Below, one piece after another: positions 56,651-63,746 of a stretch of DNA of 64,000 nt. The position numbers were made by a program, and so were the translations under genes. Position 1 is the stretch's first letter; every line of letters begins with the position of its first letter. The notes beneath the pieces are model-generated. The model ran no database searches. It was not told the origin of the DNA and saw nothing but the letters and a program-made list of their open reading frames with translations. The stretch covers positions 186,001-250,000 of the forward strand of contig NZ_JALKAP010000005.1 of the NCBI RefSeq assembly GCF_023016045.1. The letters are read 5' to 3'. The DNA comes from Marinobacter sp. S6332 (lineage in GTDB: Bacteria; Pseudomonadota; Gammaproteobacteria; Pseudomonadales; Oleiphilaceae).

Positions 56651-58132
56651 CTAGCAGGTTGGCATGGTTTGCAGCGCGAGCTTGCGGCGAATGTATCGTC
56701 CGAGTGCATCAACACCAATGTTGAGCAGGGCGGTTACCAAGATCAACACCATGGCGCGGTCGAACCGGATGTTCTGTATGGCGCTGTCCACATAAAACCC
56801 CAGAGTGTAGATGCCTAGAATCCCCAAAATCGCGGTTTCACGCATGATGATTTCCCAGCGATAGAATAAAAACGCGAGAAACGCGCGGTACACTCTGGGC
56901 ACAAGTTCCCAACTGTAGCGATTAAACCCTGTTATGGCGTCGGCACGGAGCTTGATGGAATTGGTTTGCCGACCAATCAGGTGCCCGATAATGCCGCCAT
57001 TATGCAATGCCAGAGCTACAACAGCCGGTAGCATGGATGGACCCCAGAGCTGTAACAGGATATACGCCAGAATGTATTCCGGCGTAGAGCGCGCAATCAC
57101 AAGTGCCACATGCCCTGCATTACGCCTTATTGGTCCACCGAAATGGTTGGAAATCAGGGGGAAGGCCAAGAGCGATAAAATGCCGGTGGCCACTAGCGCT
57201 ATTTGGGTAAGCACGATGGTGTTCCAGATACCCGGCATGGCTTCATTAACCATCAAATCACTCAGCCACGGGGTTACGCCAGCAAGACCCTCTCCATTGC
57301 GCAATGGGGCTGGAACTATGTCTTCGGTAAAAAATCGCTGCACATTACCCCAAACGATGGGTAAGCCCTCGCCGAGAAAGAAAGGCGCTCCAAGAATGTA
57401 AACCGGCAGAAGTTTGGGTCGCACCCATAAAGGCATGGTAGCGATCAACACGTAAAACAGAATCAGCATGGCACCCGCATCGGAATATAGCCCCTGAGAG
57501 AAGGACGCCTCCAGATAGAAACCCAGTGTCGGCAGACCAACGAACCCGAGAATTGCGCTAGAGCGTAAGCCGCATTCAAGCCGATACGCGGTGTAAGTGC
57601 GCATCTTCACCCAACAGTCAGGGATGCGGGTATAGAGAAATGCGGTAATATTCCCGGTGCCGGGGGGCAGTACACGGCCGGGTTCCGGGTCAGCTTCTTC
57701 CAGAATTTCCGAGTACACCTTGGCAAAGATTCCCGCGTAGGGAATTGCGATGGCCAGCACCCCGGTTAGCGGATGAAACCCAAAAAACTGCAGAAAAATC
57801 AGAGCCCAAAATAGCTCGTGAATCGCGCGGACAAATGCGCAAAACATCCGCACGGGCAAAGAGCGGTAAATCAAGGCCAATAGGAACCCGACAACACCCC
57901 CAAGCGCAACGCCAACGAATGCAAACGCAACTGTTCTCAACAGGGCGGTCATTAGACCTTCACTACTAAAAAAGTTGGGGGTTACTATTCCCAGAAAAAA
58001 ATTGCCCAAATCCCGCCAGGGATTGGAGGCGGTGATCGCTATATCGGCAAACAGCAGCCCGACCAAGGCAATGGCAAGGAAAATAAAGCTTGTACGAACC
58101 GTTGGAGAAGAAAACATGGAACGGCTGTGCAC
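56651..58132 (-). CDS. PhnE-type ABC permease, two permease units in one chain
   Basis: 493 residues, about twice the length of a single PhnE. The first unit (about 60-250) holds 'GVALGGVVGFLLALIYRSLP' and 'IPYAGIFAKVYSEILEEADP'; the second (about 300-490) holds 'STPEYILAYILLQLWGPSML', 'GGIIGHLIGRQTNSI' and 'ETAILGILGIYTLGFYVDSA'. Both carry the binding-protein-dependent permease loop. The start is GTG 58132, touching the ATPase stop; ATG 58117 is an alternative. The context (SenB, SelD) makes a selenium oxyanion the best-supported substrate, with phosphonate or phosphite less likely because no phn catabolic genes are present. Confidence 0.87.
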   Translation of the reverse strand: MHSRSMFSSPTVRTSFIFLAIALVGLLFADIAITASNPWRDLGNFFLGIVTPNFFSSEGLMTALLRTVAFAFVGVALGGVVGFLLALIYRSLPVRMFCAFVRAIHELFWALIFLQFFGFHPLTGVLAIAIPYAGIFAKVYSEILEEADPEPGRVLPPGTGNITAFLYTRIPDCWVKMRTYTAYRLECGLRSSAILGFVGLPTLGFYLEASFSQGLYSDAGAMLILFYVLIATMPLWVRPKLLPVYILGAPFFLGEGLPIVWGNVQRFFTEDIVPAPLRNGEGLAGVTPWLSDLMVNEAMPGIWNTIVLTQIALVATGILSLLAFPLISNHFGGPIRRNAGHVALVIARSTPEYILAYILLQLWGPSMLPAVVALALHNGGIIGHLIGRQTNSIKLRADAITGFNRYSWELVPRVYRAFLAFLFYRWEIIMRETAILGILGIYTLGFYVDSAIQNIRFDRAMVLILVTALLNIGVDALGRYIRRKLALQTMPTC

Positions 58133-58783
58133 CTAGTAGAGAGACATGATGTCTGACGACGTAAGGTCTTCGCTGGGCTGATCCAGAGCGACCTGACCAT
58201 CCTGTATGCCAACAATTCTGGTGCAATAATTTAACGCTAGATCAACATCGTGCAGCGCAATGATACTGGTAGAAAAGCGATCCCGAAGAAGCGCCATCAC
58301 CGAGTTAGCCATGGGACCGTCGAGTGCCGATACCGGCTCATCGGCCAGCAGCACAGCTGCGTTCCGGTAAAGTGCCCGAGCAATGGCAACACGTTGGCGC
58401 TGCCCACCGGAAAGTGAGGCTGTGGGTGTCCAGAGTTTTTCGTTCATTTCCAGAGATTGCAGCAGTGCAGTCACCTCGGCCCGGTCTTTGGCGAATGGCC
58501 GAGCAAGCGTTACGGTGTTGTACCAAGTGGCGTGTTTATCCAGTTGACCCATAAACACGTTGTGGAAGACGGAAAGGGCATTCACCAAGCCCAAATCTTG
58601 CGGCACTAAGGATGAGTCCCGGTTAACCCGTTCGTGAATCAAGCGAATGAGGGTGGATTTACCGGCGCCACTTTTCCCCACTAAGGCGATTTTATCGCCT
58701 GGGTTAACCTGCAGCGACAGCGGGCCAATAACCCGCTTGCCGCTGAATGAAGCCGTAAGGCCAGAGAGGTCGAAGCCTGACAT
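58133..58783 (-). CDS. PhnC-like ABC transporter ATP-binding protein
   Basis: 216 residues. Walker A 'LVGKSGAGKSTLIRLIH', Q-loop 'SLVPQDLGLVNALSVFHNVFMG', signature 'LSGGQRQRVAIARAL', Walker B 'VLLADEPVSALD'. The Q-loop region follows PhnC-type importers. Its ATG overlaps the binding-protein TGA by one base (TGATG), so the three transporter genes are coupled. Confidence 0.9.
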   Translation of the reverse strand: MSGFDLSGLTASFSGKRVIGPLSLQVNPGDKIALVGKSGAGKSTLIRLIHERVNRDSSLVPQDLGLVNALSVFHNVFMGQLDKHATWYNTVTLARPFAKDRAEVTALLQSLEMNEKLWTPTASLSGGQRQRVAIARALYRNAAVLLADEPVSALDGPMANSVMALLRDRFSTSIIALHDVDLALNYCTRIVGIQDGQVALDQPSEDLTSSDIMSLY

Positions 58784-59655
58784 CAATCGAGGATTCCAAT
58801 CTCTTCTGCTGTTTTACGAATAGGCTCATAATCATCGTTGGAAGCAGGAATGAAACCTGAGCGCGGAAAGCTTTCCAGAAGCTCCGGATTATCAAGATTA
58901 AGCAGTGCTTCCGTAACCCGCTGTTTGAAACCGTCACCAAACCGGTCGTTTACATCACCACGGATGGTCCACTGATAATCCGGATAGGCAGGTGTTTTCC
59001 AAATAACCTGAACGGCATCGGTGTCAATGTTCCCATCCCCCAGCTCCTTTTCCCAAACTTGGAAATTGAGGGCGCCTATGTCATAGGTGCCAGCTTCAAC
59101 CAAGCGAAGGGTTCGTGTGTGATTACCACTGAAGCCCACCCGGGAGAAAAAGTCTTCCGGCTTTGAGTCAAAGGTGTCGCGCACATAAAACTCGGGCATC
59201 AGGCGACCAGAGGTGGAGCCTTTGGAGCCGAACGTAAAGGTTTTGCCCTTGAGCTGACTTTCTAGCTCAGTAAGCTTATCCGCTGGCTTTATGCCGGTAT
59301 TGGTATTAGCAATAAAATAGGTTTCGAAGGCCTCGTCTTCAACACCTTGAGCGATTGCTTCCGAGCCTGAAACTAGCCTGCGAGCCTGTACGCCGGAAAG
59401 CCCGCCGAACCAGGCTAACTGAACCTGATTATTGCGAAAAGCAGAAACCGCAGCTGCGTAGGACTTCACAGGGATGTAGCGAACATCTACATCGAGTTGC
59501 TCGGAGAGGTAATCGGCGACACCACGAAAACGTTCAACAAGTTTGGTCTCGTCTTCATCGGGGATTGCTGTGAATACAAACGTTTCTGCCGATGCAGCAG
59601 CGGTGGCGAACAAAAAACTAGAAAGCACAAACTTCCGTATGAAATTCAAAGCCAT
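58783..59655 (-). CDS. Putative selenate/phosphonate ABC transporter substrate-binding protein
   Basis: 290 residues. A signal peptide (cleavage near AAASA, about residue 23) precedes a PhnD-like periplasmic domain: 'TAIPDEDETKLVERFRGVADYLSEQL' in outline, 'YAAAVSAFRNNQVQLAWFGGL' and 'GSKGSTSGRLMPEFY' (ligand loop). This is the type annotated in databases as putative selenate transporter binding protein, which recurs next to selD. AAGGA lies 7 bases before the ATG. First gene of the importer operon, divergent from senB with 196 bp between. Confidence 0.87.
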   Translation of the reverse strand: MALNFIRKFVLSSFLFATAAASAETFVFTAIPDEDETKLVERFRGVADYLSEQLDVDVRYIPVKSYAAAVSAFRNNQVQLAWFGGLSGVQARRLVSGSEAIAQGVEDEAFETYFIANTNTGIKPADKLTELESQLKGKTFTFGSKGSTSGRLMPEFYVRDTFDSKPEDFFSRVGFSGNHTRTLRLVEAGTYDIGALNFQVWEKELGDGNIDTDAVQVIWKTPAYPDYQWTIRGDVNDRFGDGFKQRVTEALLNLDNPELLESFPRSGFIPASNDDYEPIRKTAEEIGILD

Positions 59656-59851
59656 TTGAAGTCCTTGATTGTTTTATGTGATTGATAGAGCGCAGATGCA
59701 GGATACTCTGATTCATCGAAACCCTGAACAGCTATACGAATTACGGGTTTAAATAGGTCATGTGTCCGTGCACTATTCTTGGTGAACGGCCTATAAGTCT
59801 AACAAAATTCCATTCCGGCCCTGAACGGGGCAATTTATACCGAAGAGGTCT

Positions 59852-60838
59852 ATGGATATCATCATTCTTACGCCTGCTAACCCGGGTTCGAAAGCTGGCA
59901 ATAGGGCAACCGCAGAGCGCTGGCAGATGTTGTTGGAGCAGTTGGGGCACAGGGTATCTGTTGTTACGGAGTATAGTGGCGAACCCTGTGATCTGTTCCT
60001 TGCTTTGCATGCTTGGCGCAGTCATACCGCAGTGCGCCTGTTTCGGGAGACCTGGCCGGAAAAACCACTGGTGGTGGCGTTAACAGGAACGGATATTTAC
60101 CGGCACCAGCACGAATTCCCAAAGCAAACCCTATACTCGATGCAGGTGGCCGATGTATTGATTGGACTGCATGACCAAGTGGGTGGTGATATTCCGGAGG
60201 CATTTCAAAGCAAGCTGACAACCCTTTATCAGTCTGCTGAGAAGCCTGCTGAAGCATCCTTGAGAGAGCCTAAGGGATCGGCGTATTTTGATGTGTGTGT
60301 AATCGGCCATCTAAGGGATGAAAAAGACTCCCTCCGGGCAGCGATGGCGGCTAGGCTGCTACCCGCCAATTCGCGCATTCGGGTCTCCTGTGCAGGTAAA
60401 CCCCACACTGAGCAATGGGGCGTGCGCGCCAAACAGGAGTTGCAGCAGAACCCACGGTTTAGATGGCTGGGTGAATTGGAGAAAAGCGATATCGAAAAAC
60501 TAATGGCTGATAGCGATCTACTGGTGATGAGTTCCGTGATGGAAGGTGGAGCGAATGTCGTGTCAGAAGCTTGCCGGGCTGGCTTGCCGATAATCGCCTC
60601 GAATATTTCCGGGAATGTCGGGCTTCTCGGCAAGGATTACGCGGGTTACTACCCGGTTGGAGACACTCAAGCCTTAGCCAACGTGCTGGAGCGTGCAGAG
60701 AATGATCCAACGTTCGTGGAGCTATTGAGAGATCAGGTAGGCCAGCTTGCTGGTAGGTTCACACCGGAAAAAGAGAGGAAATCTCTGGAGCAGGCGCTTT
60801 CACTCGCACTGCGACGAAGCCCCAGAAATATCCTTTAA
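59852..60838 (+). CDS. senB: Selenosugar synthase SenB-like glycosyltransferase (TIGR04348 family)
   Basis: 328 residues, GT-B fold. N-terminal 'ILTPANPGSKAGNRATAERW' (residues 5-24) and 'HAWRSHTAVRLF' are characteristic of TIGR04348. The C-terminal nucleotide-sugar block is 'MEGGANVVSEACRAGLPIIAS' (E231 and E239). SenB of the selenoneine pathway joins selenophosphate to a UDP-sugar. Here it lies tail to tail with SelD (2 bp between stops), which makes the selenophosphate, and head to head with the putative selenate importer. GAAGAGG precedes the ATG. The assignment rests on motif pattern and context; a generic GT4 enzyme is the alternative. Confidence 0.82.
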   Translation: MDIIILTPANPGSKAGNRATAERWQMLLEQLGHRVSVVTEYSGEPCDLFLALHAWRSHTAVRLFRETWPEKPLVVALTGTDIYRHQHEFPKQTLYSMQVADVLIGLHDQVGGDIPEAFQSKLTTLYQSAEKPAEASLREPKGSAYFDVCVIGHLRDEKDSLRAAMAARLLPANSRIRVSCAGKPHTEQWGVRAKQELQQNPRFRWLGELEKSDIEKLMADSDLLVMSSVMEGGANVVSEACRAGLPIIASNISGNVGLLGKDYAGYYPVGDTQALANVLERAENDPTFVELLRDQVGQLAGRFTPEKERKSLEQALSLALRRSPRNIL

Positions 60839-60840
60839 GC

Positions 60841-63117
60841 TCAATCCCGTAACGTAATAGGCTCGATTGGCCCACTTTCATCCTGAGGTGTTACCCGGCC
60901 AATAATGGCAGTGTGCGGGTAACCGAGTGCCTTGAGGGCCTGCACACAGTCTTCGGCCTTCTCTGCCGCAACACTGGCTAGCAAGCCGCCAGCGGTTTGT
61001 GGATCAAAAATAAGCGGATAACGCGGGTTTTTTACCCACTTCTCTTGATCCCGAATACCGCGGCGCAGGCGGATGTTGGCGGGTTGCAGAGAGCTTAGAA
61101 TGCCCGCCGCTGCGGTTTCTTCGGCACCTGGCAAGATAGGAATCGCAGAAAGATCCAGCTCTGCATCAACACCGGATGGACGAGTCATTTCAACCAGATG
61201 GCCTAAGAGGCCAAAACCCGTTACGTCTGTGCAAGCTTTAGACCCGAAACCGCGAAGGCAATCGGCAGCGGCCTTGTTAGACTGCACCATAGAGGCGAGG
61301 GCGGAGTCGATCCAACGGCCTTTGGCGGCCAGTCGGGCGTGAGCTGCGAACAGAGTGCCAGTTCCAATCGGTTTGGTGAGAATGAGGGCATCACCGGCTC
61401 GTAAGCCACCTTTACTCATCACCTCGTCAGGGTTGATGAGGCCATTCACCGCAAAACCTAACGCAAGCTCGCGGCCTTCACCGGTATGGCCGCCAACGAG
61501 TGCGCAACCGGCTTCATTTAATACATCCACGGCACCAGACATCATCTGGAACACCACGTCCTCCACTTTGGACTCAATACCATAGGGCACGGTAGCGACT
61601 GCAGTCGCACTCTGAGCTTCAGCGCCCATAGCAAACACATCGCCTAAGGCGTGGTTAGCGGCAACGCGACCAAACGTGTAAGGGTCATCAATAAATGCCC
61701 GGAAAAAATCAACGGTGTGTACTACCGCCATACCGGGCGGAACCCGCAGAACAGCGGCATCGTCTGGCGCATGCAGTCCGATCAGAATGTCGTCTCGTTC
61801 TATGGGCCTGAGTTCGCCGAGCGCCCGTGACAGGACTGTGCTGCCAACCTTGGCGCCGCAGCCTCCGCACCGCATAGCGACCGCAGATATAGCCTGAGAG
61901 GCCTCCTCCGGGTTCTGCGCCGCAGCGGTATCAGGCAGGCTGGAGGCTTCTTCCATGGGGGGCAGGTCGGTGAACTTGCTCATAAACCGACGATCGATCC
62001 AGTCTTTCCAGCGCCACACCAGCGCACCTTCAAATTGGGTATCACCGCGAGAAGCGACGGCATACTTATCGCCAGTGCTAATCAGCGCCAGCCACTTTTC
62101 TTGAGGTCGAAAATCTTTTGGGGCCTTGCCCAGTGCCAGACGTTTGAGGTTGTCTGCCAAAGGCGGGCCCTGACGGACAGCAAACACACCGGCTTTCTCC
62201 CGGGGATGATTGATAACATTAGCAATGTCGCCAGCCGCAAAAATGCTGTCGTCGTTTTCCACCTGTAGAGTGTCTCGGACTCGCAAAAAGAGGCCGTCAT
62301 CAAGCGCCAGACCCGTTTCTTGCAGCCAAGACGGCCCGCCAGCGCGGGTTACCCAAAGCACTTCGTCGGCTTGAAGAGTTTCGCCCGAGGATGTGCGCAA
62401 TAACCCTTCACTAACTTTTTCGACAGGCGAGCCAAGATGAAGCTTTACTCCTCGCTCATTAAGCGTTTTTCGAAAAACTTCACGCACTTTCTCATTGTGA
62501 GTAGGTAGAATTTCGTCGGCGGCATCAAACAAATGGAAGTGCAGTTGATCAGAGTCTCGACCTCGCTGCGCCATCTCGTTTTTAAGCCGGTACTGCATCG
62601 CCAAAGTCAGCTCCACACCACCTGCACCTGCACCGACAACACCAATGGTAAGAGGCCCTTCGTGGGACTCAATGCGAGATAGCAGAGCAAGCCATCGGTT
62701 GTTGAAACCGGTAATCGGCTTCACAGGTACTGCATATTTCGCAGCACCTTCCACTTCGTTTACTCTGGGAGATGAGCCGATGTTGATCGATAGTATATCG
62801 TAAGGCACATCTGGTCGGCCTTTACAGATAACCCGCTTGTTAGCGCGATCAATGCCGATGGCTTCGGCACGGTAAAACCGCGCTCCTGCAAATTCAGCTA
62901 GGCGGCTCAGATCAATGTGCACATCGTCGTAACTGTAATGACCTGCCACATAACCTGGCAGCATTCCGGAGTAGGGCGTGTGGGTATCACGGCAGATAAG
63001 GGTCAGGCGCACGCCGGGTACTGGTTTCATTGCAAACCGTTTTAGTACACCGACGTGGCTGTGCCCACCGCCAATCAGGACTATGTCCCGTAGAACAGGC
63101 TGGTCAGGCGTTCGCAT
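60841..63117 (-). CDS. selD: Flavin oxidoreductase-SelD fusion (selenide, water dikinase)
   Basis: 758 residues in two parts. Residues 1-380 are an NDH-2/SQR-like FAD oxidoreductase with 'DIVLIGGGHSHVGVLKRF' (11-28), 'THTPYSGMLPGYVAGHY', 'GVVGAGAGGVELTLAM' (159-174) and 'SIFAAGDIAN'. Residues from about 410 are SelD, which makes selenophosphate from selenide and ATP: 'RCGGCGAKVG' with catalytic Cys420 and Lys423, 'APDDAAVL', 'HTVDFF', 'VGGHTGEGRELALG' and 'LTKPIGTG'. The second Cys of E. coli SelD (GCGCK) is Ala here. The fused flavoprotein may deliver or reduce the selenium substrate. Starts 1 base from the HhH gene's stop. Confidence 0.94.
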   Translation of the reverse strand: MRTPDQPVLRDIVLIGGGHSHVGVLKRFAMKPVPGVRLTLICRDTHTPYSGMLPGYVAGHYSYDDVHIDLSRLAEFAGARFYRAEAIGIDRANKRVICKGRPDVPYDILSINIGSSPRVNEVEGAAKYAVPVKPITGFNNRWLALLSRIESHEGPLTIGVVGAGAGGVELTLAMQYRLKNEMAQRGRDSDQLHFHLFDAADEILPTHNEKVREVFRKTLNERGVKLHLGSPVEKVSEGLLRTSSGETLQADEVLWVTRAGGPSWLQETGLALDDGLFLRVRDTLQVENDDSIFAAGDIANVINHPREKAGVFAVRQGPPLADNLKRLALGKAPKDFRPQEKWLALISTGDKYAVASRGDTQFEGALVWRWKDWIDRRFMSKFTDLPPMEEASSLPDTAAAQNPEEASQAISAVAMRCGGCGAKVGSTVLSRALGELRPIERDDILIGLHAPDDAAVLRVPPGMAVVHTVDFFRAFIDDPYTFGRVAANHALGDVFAMGAEAQSATAVATVPYGIESKVEDVVFQMMSGAVDVLNEAGCALVGGHTGEGRELALGFAVNGLINPDEVMSKGGLRAGDALILTKPIGTGTLFAAHARLAAKGRWIDSALASMVQSNKAAADCLRGFGSKACTDVTGFGLLGHLVEMTRPSGVDAELDLSAIPILPGAEETAAAGILSSLQPANIRLRRGIRDQEKWVKNPRYPLIFDPQTAGGLLASVAAEKAEDCVQALKALGYPHTAIIGRVTPQDESGPIEPITLRD

Positions 63118-63746
63118 CAGTTGATTTTCTTGGCTTCAGCTGTGAGTTGATCAAAACCTTTGATGCTGGAGAAAGCGTTCAGTTTTTCTTGATCCGCTTC
63201 GGATGGGTCAGCAATTTGATCGATGGAAGTAATCCCGGCGTCTTTCATCTTCTTAGCCGTTGCGGGCCCAATACCTTTTACCAAAGTAAGGTCGCTTCTA
63301 TCGGTCGGTTTCTTCTCTTTGGGGGTGGCCGGTTTTTTTGTGGCAGGCTTTGCAGCGGCAGATTTTTTGGGTGCTGCCTTTTTAGCCGCGGGCTGCTTCT
63401 TGCTAGCCGCAGGCTTCTTCTTAAGTTCTTTTTTGCTCTCTTTTTCGGCTTTCTTGATGTCCTCTTTAGAGGCAACGCCCAGCCGCTCAAGTATGTTGGA
63501 TTGCAGCTCGTGGAACTCATCCAAGCGACGCTCAAATTCGTCGTTAAACCGCCTTAATTCGCGCTCACGAAGCTCGTCAACTTCTTTTAGCAGTTTACGC
63601 ACAGGATCCTGAACTTGCTGTTGCAGGCTATCGAAGTGCTTCATCGCATCGCTGATCAAAGCTTCAATCTGAGCGGACGTTTTCTCAAATTCCTTGTTGA
63701 CCTTCTTAACGATTTTATCAACGCTCGCTTTGGCATTTTTCGCCAT
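63117..63746 (-). CDS. Coiled-coil protein with Lys/Ala-rich linker and HhH domain
   Basis: 209 residues. Residues 1-95 are a charged, phasin-like amphipathic coiled coil. Residues about 95-150 are a Lys/Ala/Pro-rich histone-like linker with repeated 'AAKK' units. Residues about 153-180 hold a helix-hairpin-helix, 'LTLVKGIGPATAKKMKDAGI'. This resembles PhaF-type nucleoid- and granule-binding proteins in overall design, joined to an HhH element that usually binds DNA. Function unknown. It immediately precedes selD on the same strand (stop and ATG share one base). Confidence 0.8.
   Translation of the reverse strand: MAKNAKASVDKIVKKVNKEFEKTSAQIEALISDAMKHFDSLQQQVQDPVRKLLKEVDELRERELRRFNDEFERRLDEFHELQSNILERLGVASKEDIKKAEKESKKELKKKPAASKKQPAAKKAAPKKSAAAKPATKKPATPKEKKPTDRSDLTLVKGIGPATAKKMKDAGITSIDQIADPSEADQEKLNAFSSIKGFDQLTAEAKKIN

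Follow-up and report, generated by a model that had tools for sequence, protein, structure and literature searches.

What does an importer that resembles those for phosphonates carry when it is encoded among genes of selenium metabolism? The question is raised by positions 56,651 to 63,117 of a 64,000-nucleotide stretch of Marinobacter sp. S6332 (contig NZ_JALKAP010000005.1, positions 186,001 to 250,000; hereafter the window), where the genes of a PhnD/PhnC/double-PhnE ATP-binding cassette (ABC) importer, a SenB-type selenosugar synthase and an oxidoreductase-SelD fusion lie together. We consider it quite likely that the locus is a module for selenium supply and selenosugar synthesis, its importer being a predicted selenium transporter. 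With moderate confidence, we also propose that PhnDCE importers whose substrate-binding protein (SBP) belongs to family TIGR04553 are the missing high-affinity selenite importers of bacteria, and that the PhnDCE system of picocyanobacteria is one of them; it would feed an oxidoreductase-SelD fusion and SelU, and phosphite would be a mimic of hydrogen selenite.

The initial annotation, made from the sequence of the window, had recognized these genes as a group, and family profiles bear it out, with the ATPase and the permease scoring below the cut-offs for phosphonate transport. The SBP reached 425.8 bits against TIGR04553 (cut-off 250), which NCBIfam names 'putative selenate ABC transporter substrate-binding protein', and 150.3 bits against the PhnD equivalog TIGR03431 (cut-off 261.1). 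The best match of the ATPase was to TIGR02315 (166.8 bits, cut-off 266.1); it also gave 88.6 bits, above the cut-off, for PF00005, and the Walker A and LSGGQ motifs were seen by eye in its translation. Two TIGR01097 stretches were found in the permease, with 199.6 bits in all (cut-off 216.7), and in related loci the PhnE domains lie either in a single long frame or in two genes of their own. None of the three window proteins thus reached the cut-off of the phosphonate importer equivalogs TIGR03431, TIGR02315 and TIGR01097. Membership of TIGR04553 was clear-cut in the genome draws described below, in which the weakest match above the cut-off had 298 bits and the best one below it 172.

The closest solved relatives of the SBP are the PhnD1 proteins of Synechococcus MITS9220 (7s6g, E 1.2e-69) and Prochlorococcus MIT9301 (5lq5, E 2.5e-59), and PtxB comes next (E 5.6e-30). 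A predicted model of the SBP (pLDDT 91.7) best matched the fold of 7s6g (Z 31.3, rmsd 4.4 over 268 residues), with Z scores of 30.5 for 5lq8, 30.4 for 5lq5 and 26.7 for the best PtxB. The PhnD1 fragments themselves scored above the TIGR04553 cut-off (333.6 for 7s6g and 294.5 for 5lq5), whereas PtxB fell below it (5lv1, 152.3). The pocket of the SBP comprises D33, Y66, F110, S147-T148-S149, H179, N197, D226 and Y227, and it retains the residues that are reported to bind phosphate or phosphite in PhnD1 (PMC10284923; PMC5700983), namely Y66, S147, T148, S149, H179, D226 and the capping Y227. PtxB shares with the SBP the fold, the STS-H oxyanion site and the tyrosine cap; however, PtxB-like sequences mostly carry Y, S and Q where TIGR04553 has F, N and D, and they lie on the other side of the SBP tree (94/63). 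Across the 76 TIGR04553 rows of that tree, F110 was invariant, D226 was D in 71 and N in 5, N197 was N in 73 and Y227 was Y in 75, whereas the seven outgroup rows had Y at the F110 site (6/7), Q at the D226 site (5/7) and S at the N197 site (5/7). Bisson et al. linked a Y-to-F change with the recruitment of the pocket Asp, took contact with this Asp as a sign of a monoprotonated oxyanion, and described a PhnD1 pocket that holds three phosphite oxygens while a tyrosine caps the fourth position (PMC5700983).

The importer had initially been read as one for selenate or selenite, and selenite appears to fit better than selenate, because selenate, like phosphate, has a fourth oxygen that would face the tyrosine cap. 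Hydrogen selenite, whose second pKa is near 8, is pyramidal, carries one proton and has three oxygens, and by its geometry it should suit the SBP site at least as well as phosphite. The TIGR04553 family would thus most likely import selenite rather than selenate, with phosphite as a mimic.

To place the SBP, a tree was drawn from 109 candidate loci, of which 29 picocyanobacterial ones were left out to thin near-copies and one (L113) gave no usable match. In its 83 rows, the TIGR04553 proteins split from the seven outgroup rows at 94/63 (91% of bootstrap trees). The 22 PhnD1 rows formed one group (100/98), sister to a 30-row group (99/95) of Chloroflexota, other cyanobacteria and the locus L073, some members of which are linked to SelD, the fusion or SenA-SenB; together they make a 52-row clade (99/97) that joins the 10-row clade of the window at 100/98. 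Because the sister group has selenium-linked members and the 52-row clade joins that of the window, PhnD1 is bracketed by selenium-linked relatives. Some branches are long, that of PhnD1_5lq5 among them, and their place is unsure; long branches drew a program warning in the SenB tree as well. The SBP of one contig titled Pelagibacteraceae TMED146 (L016, NHGV01000011.1) fell inside the marine Synechococcus clade, and this contig is probably misbinned.

The occurrence of TIGR04553 was then compared with that of selenium genes, all counts being of matches above the cut-off. Among 299 Pseudomonadota genomes, TIGR04553 was found in 24, SelD in 84 and SenB in 10. UbiU/UbiV and a cardiolipin synthase that among plasmid records comes nearest to proteobacterial ones agree with the assignment of the window to this phylum. 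SelD was present in 22 of the 24 TIGR04553 genomes, against 39/138 of those with only other PhnD-like proteins and 23/137 of those with none. The 10 SenB carriers all had SelD, and six of them had TIGR04553, against 24/299 overall. In a draw of 194 genomes from Cyanobacteriota, the phylum of Synechococcus WH7803, TIGR04553 was found in 23, SelD in 37 and SenB in none; here SelD accompanied TIGR04553 in 23/23 genomes, against 12/63 with only other PhnD-like proteins and 2/108 with none, and the SelD frame was fusion-sized (723-900 amino acids, aa) in all 23.

Neighbourhoods were inspected at 104 TIGR04553 loci (80 named loci and the 24 of the Pseudomonadota draw; matches above 60 bits, flanks of differing length), and 15 had a sen, sel, egtD or fusion gene in the flank (9/24 drawn, 6/80 named). 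In the four loci of the window genus, the fusion and SenB lie beside the importer. The order is SenA-SelD-SBP-PhnC-PhnE-PhnE-EgtD with a convergent SenB in G202, whose SenA scored 379.4 (cut-off 420), and SenA-like-SenB-SBP-PhnC-PhnE in L073; in G019, EgtD adjoins the SBP, and SenA, SenB and SelD lie 6-9 kb away. The SBP adjoins SelD-SelU in G054 and G207, SelD in G271 and two Chloroflexota, and the fusion in three Moorena. Because the arrangements differ among loci, they argue for a repeated association of the importer with selenium genes. A link of the importer to selenocysteine was not supported, as no SelA or SelB above 60 bits was found in the flanks of the 104 loci, to which this search was confined.

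Other features of these neighbourhoods were also recorded. Two tandem TIGR04553 binding proteins (343.5 and 327.1 bits) stand next to SelD in G271 (L136, G271:C6:97533-99344). In G143, a complete genome without SelD above the cut-off, the TIGR04553 protein (L137, G143:C1:32001-32792) has no PhnC or PhnE match in 20 kb. Clustering of the neighbours was dominated by importer genes, and the unlabelled clusters 4 and 15 recurred at eight and six loci, respectively, which are partly near relatives; ten neighbours, drawn from six loci that included a stand-alone SelD region, were put through a family scan.

The bracketing of PhnD1 bears on a puzzle in picocyanobacteria. The Cyanorak database covers 97 picocyanobacterial strains, every one of which is reported to have PhnD1 (PMC10284923), and the in vivo function of this protein was called unknown (PMC5700983). 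The reported Kd of Pm_PhnD1 is 51 nM for phosphite and 182 uM for phosphate, so that phosphite is bound ~3500 times tighter (PMC5700983), and for Synechococcus PhnD1 a phosphate affinity of 7-88 uM and a phosphate-bound structure were reported (PMC10284923). According to the same report, PhnD1 favours phosphite over phosphate and is not induced by phosphate starvation, most picocyanobacterial strains lack phosphite genes, and such strains, where tested, cannot grow on phosphite (PMC10284923). The string 'selen' is absent from the main texts of PMC10284923 and PMC5700983.

The picocyanobacterial PhnDCE with PhnD1 (PDB 5LQ5, 5LQ8, 7S6G) and the window have in common a TIGR04553 SBP, its pocket residues and the PhnC/PhnE partners, and both the window genome and the PhnD1 genomes (four picocyanobacteria tested) have the oxidoreductase-SelD fusion and SelU. 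They differ in that PhnD1 is 42-45% identical to the window SBP, that PhnD1 loci have no sen or sel gene in the examined flanks, and that phosphite or phosphate has been proposed as the substrate of PhnD1. SelU and a SelD with an oxidoreductase in front, both above the cut-off, were found in each of the 11 cyanobacterial carrier genomes tested (four from Synechococcus or Prochlorococcus), and the two lie side by side in 4/11. Because the window importer that stands beside selenium genes belongs to the same TIGR04553 family, our analysis suggests that the PhnD1 transporter also imports selenium.

The enzymes of the locus were assessed in the same manner. SenB scored 404.4 bits against TIGR04348 (cut-off 300), and the best four of its five PDB matches at E <= 0.001 belong to the SenB family. 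For the SenB tree, 60 loci were given and 46 had a match; 35 generic GT4 and 10 SenB loci were used. In its 47 rows, 12 SenB rows, including Variovorax SenB, separated from the 35 generic GT4 rows at 100/100 (100% of bootstrap trees). The initial annotation had set SenB against a generic GT4 enzyme, and the latter identity for 59,852-60,838 is ruled out by this split. The protein keeps N20, T23, H58, R61, T83, T85, R155, K158, E231 and E239, and 12 of the 14 inspected sites match VpSenB, including the catalytic and donor residues N20, T23, K158 and E231 (roles as in PMC10891094); the two exceptions, V157 replaced by E and H235 by N, recur in 8/11 and 6/11 other rows, respectively. The product of 59,852-60,838 is accordingly classed as a SenB selenosugar synthase, an activity predicted from family and residues.

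The fusion scored 510.1 bits against TIGR03169 (cut-off 310), 303.8 against the SelD family TIGR00476 (cut-off 125) and 101.2 against PF07992. Both catalytic residues of Escherichia coli SelD are kept, Cys17 as C420 and Lys20 as K423, and an extra C417 completes a CxxC with C420 at the SelD active site. This CxxC was present in all 15 aligned fusions (the window, three congeners and 11 cyanobacteria), whereas E. coli SelD lacks it, and E. coli Cys19 was kept in none of the 15; the CxxC might act as a relay for redox equivalents or selenide. A 2005 report (Romero; PMC1273633) remarked on the cyanobacterial fusions and on ybbB/selU, and Zhang (2008) proposed that the oxidoreductase serves SelD by reducing a selenium compound (PMC2432076). 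The cyanobacterial NADH dehydrogenase-SelD fusions share the architecture and the CxxC of the window fusion, which differs from them in adjoining SenB. Two picocyanobacterial fusions (L147 and L150) score as TIGR04369 'fusion_not_SelD' (1025.6 and 938.4 bits; the window fusion has 471.8, cut-off 700). They also pass the SelD cut-off, keep the Cys and Lys and occur in genomes with SelU, and the family name may be misleading for them. Near the SelD-SenB-SenA cluster of G019, a separate frame (L212, 9446-10600) has an oxidoreductase-like match (34%, 202 bits) and is possibly an unfused oxidoreductase partner.

We favour the following series of steps. The TIGR04553 importer would take up a pyramidal selenium oxyanion, most likely hydrogen selenite. 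Inside the cell, this would be reduced to selenide, and the oxidoreductase domain may catalyse the final step and pass the selenide directly on to the fused SelD. SelD would then form selenophosphate from selenide and ATP, and SenB would combine it with a UDP-sugar to give a 1-seleno-sugar; both reactions are established for these families, whose catalytic residues are kept here. Finally, SenA, encoded on another contig, would transfer the selenium of the selenosugar to an acceptor derived from histidine, so that selenoneine or a related compound would result.

Several observations weigh against this interpretation. In the reported ligand screen, only phosphorus cocktails stabilised PhnD1, which binds phosphite, phosphate and methylphosphonate (PMC10284923). 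No selenium gene lies in the examined flank of 89 of the 104 TIGR04553 loci, every picocyanobacterial locus included, and two TIGR04553 carriers, G263 (78% complete) and G143 (complete), have no SelD above the cut-off. The Fisher p values for SelD against the PhnD-like controls, 4e-9 in Pseudomonadota and 2e-12 in Cyanobacteriota, are overstated since the genomes are related. The importer cannot be predicted from the fusion by itself, because 13 of the 17 SelDs with an open frame of at least 700 aa in the Pseudomonadota draw sit in TIGR04553-free genomes; the fused SelD need not supply SenB, because the window genome has a second, stand-alone SelD on contig C12; and EgtD (TIGR03438) had no match in the window genome (G000, 99.99% complete). 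The importer might instead carry phosphite or phosphonate, or phosphate with medium affinity, its siting beside selenium genes being accidental. The Kd values of Pm_PhnD1 (PMC5700983), the phosphate import that Shah et al. propose for PhnD1 (PMC10284923), and a fold and most pocket residues that are those of PtxB speak for such a role. Yet SelD co-occurs with TIGR04553 far more than with other PhnD-like proteins, sen and sel genes are linked to the SBP in several clades of its tree, the window SBP falls below the PhnD cut-off, and the reported lack of phosphite genes, phosphite growth and phosphate-starvation induction in picocyanobacteria (PMC10284923) fits poorly with it, so that we regard this role as improbable. 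Import of selenate, as the NCBIfam name has it, seems unlikely too, if a little less so: a pocket for three oxygens with a tyrosine cap, in which Y227 and D226 are kept in the window, and the preference of Pm_PhnD for phosphite over phosphate (PMC5700983) would both disfavour a fourth oxygen, although the cap argument is weakened by the phosphate that Synechococcus PhnD1 accepts at micromolar levels (PMC10284923). Selenite thus remains our preferred substrate.

Two further alternatives concern the fate of selenium after SelD. The fused SelD might mainly feed SelU for tRNA selenouridine, leaving SenB to the stand-alone SelD. SelU is indeed encoded in the window genome and adjoins the fusion in some cyanobacteria, as given above; the fusion, however, stands beside SenB in 4/4 genus genomes, and in G070 and G138 it is the sole SelD above the cut-off, which makes the alternative doubtful. 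The other alternative, that the selenosugar is a final product (for storage, for detoxification or as a selenium sugar in a polymer) rather than a step to selenoneine, is somewhat less doubtful, and we hold it as a minority view. Neither SenA nor EgtD had a match within 20 kb around the locus (L139), EgtD was likewise not found in a genome search of the congener G138, and in G219 SenB-SelD is accompanied by a SenA match of just 31 bits and by none to EgtD; because of this last genome, SenB can also serve something other than selenoneine. Against it, SenA was above the cut-off in 4/4 genus genomes, at 429 bits (cut-off 420) on contig C23 of the window genome, and because the genome encodes such a SenA the selenosugar is probably an intermediate. 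EgtD is present in the congeners G070 and G174, where it adjoins an EgtB/SenA-type gene and an EgtB above the cut-off, respectively. The selenoneine pathway runs in the order SenC, SenB, SenA (PMC9814287). The sen cluster of Variovorax paradoxus (senA-senB-senC) has in common with the window the SenB catalytic residues, SelD as the selenophosphate source and a SenA in the genome, and differs from it in that the window has SenA off the locus, SelD fused to an oxidoreductase, an adjacent importer and no EgtD found in the genome; SenA, SenB and SenC do not share a single locus here. The earlier reading of the locus as one pathway is partly borne out: its enzyme assignments hold, and the pathway is incomplete, with SenA on another contig and no EgtD found. 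Selenoneine may be formed from hercynine that the cell imports, or a related compound from a different acceptor; a literature search on ovoselenol and OvsA gave no paper on the compound among the matches listed.

The features of the locus are collected in the table below.

Table. Features of the selenium locus in the window (positions from its first nucleotide).
Feature	Positions	Strand	Basis
Fused PhnE-PhnE permease, 493 aa, with both PhnE-type domains in a single polypeptide	56651-58132	-	TIGR01097
PhnC-like ABC ATPase, 217 aa	58133-58786	-	PF00005, Walker A, LSGGQ
Periplasmic binding protein (SBP), family TIGR04553	58783-59655	-	Profile 425.8 bits
Divergent intergenic region, 196 bp, importer/senB	59656-59851	none	
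SenB selenosugar synthase (selenophosphate + UDP-sugar to selenosugar), predicted	59852-60838	+	TIGR04348
Oxidoreductase-SelD fusion, 758 aa	60841-63117	-	TIGR03169 residues 11-382, TIGR00476 residues 415-720
C-terminal SelD domain	60958-61875	-	TIGR00476, C420, K423, extra C417
N-terminal FAD/NAD(P)H oxidoreductase domain, NDH-2/FSP1-like	61972-63117	-	PF07992, TIGR03169, PDB relatives
HHH-domain/phasin-like open reading frame (ORF)	63117-63746	-	PF14520 above cut-off

All ORF positions given by the initial annotation were confirmed, and the coupled starts that it had described were found base by base: the start of the ATPase gene (TTG, or ATG at the next codon) and the stop of the SBP gene overlap, the GTG of the permease directly follows the TAG stop of the ATPase, and the ATG of the fusion overlaps the TGA of the HHH-domain gene (TGATG). 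The 2-bp gap between the converging 3' ends of SenB and the fusion is present in the window as described; as a conserved design it is ruled out, since these ends overlap by 40, 17 and 11 bp in three congeners (G070, G174 and G138). The gene order is common to the 4/4 genus genomes examined, including that of the window. Because senB and the importer are read away from each other, and senB and the fusion towards each other, the locus is, by its layout, three transcription units rather than one operon. In the 196-bp intergenic region, one weak sigma-70-like match lies at the senB end; a promoter scan gave two promoter-like sites against 5.4 expected from shuffles, and an alignment of the region from the four genus genomes gave short conserved blocks only, with no clear regulator site. 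The HHH/phasin-like ORF, which has no known selenium role, precedes the fusion gene in 4/4 genus genomes.

According to two reviews, no specific high-affinity prokaryotic selenium transporter has been identified (PMC9312934, 2022; PMC13188914, 2026). A selenium role of TIGR04553 was already suspected by the NCBI curators who named the family; what the present analysis contributes is the connection with PhnD1 and with selenite. A literature search, outside which most subscription journals lay, gave no paper that connects PhnD-type proteins with the uptake of selenium, nor one tying TIGR04553 to PhnD1 or selenite. The locus and its relatives name a candidate selenium importer, homologues of which have already been purified and solved in print, and they offer a possible answer, too, to the role of PhnDCE in picocyanobacteria.

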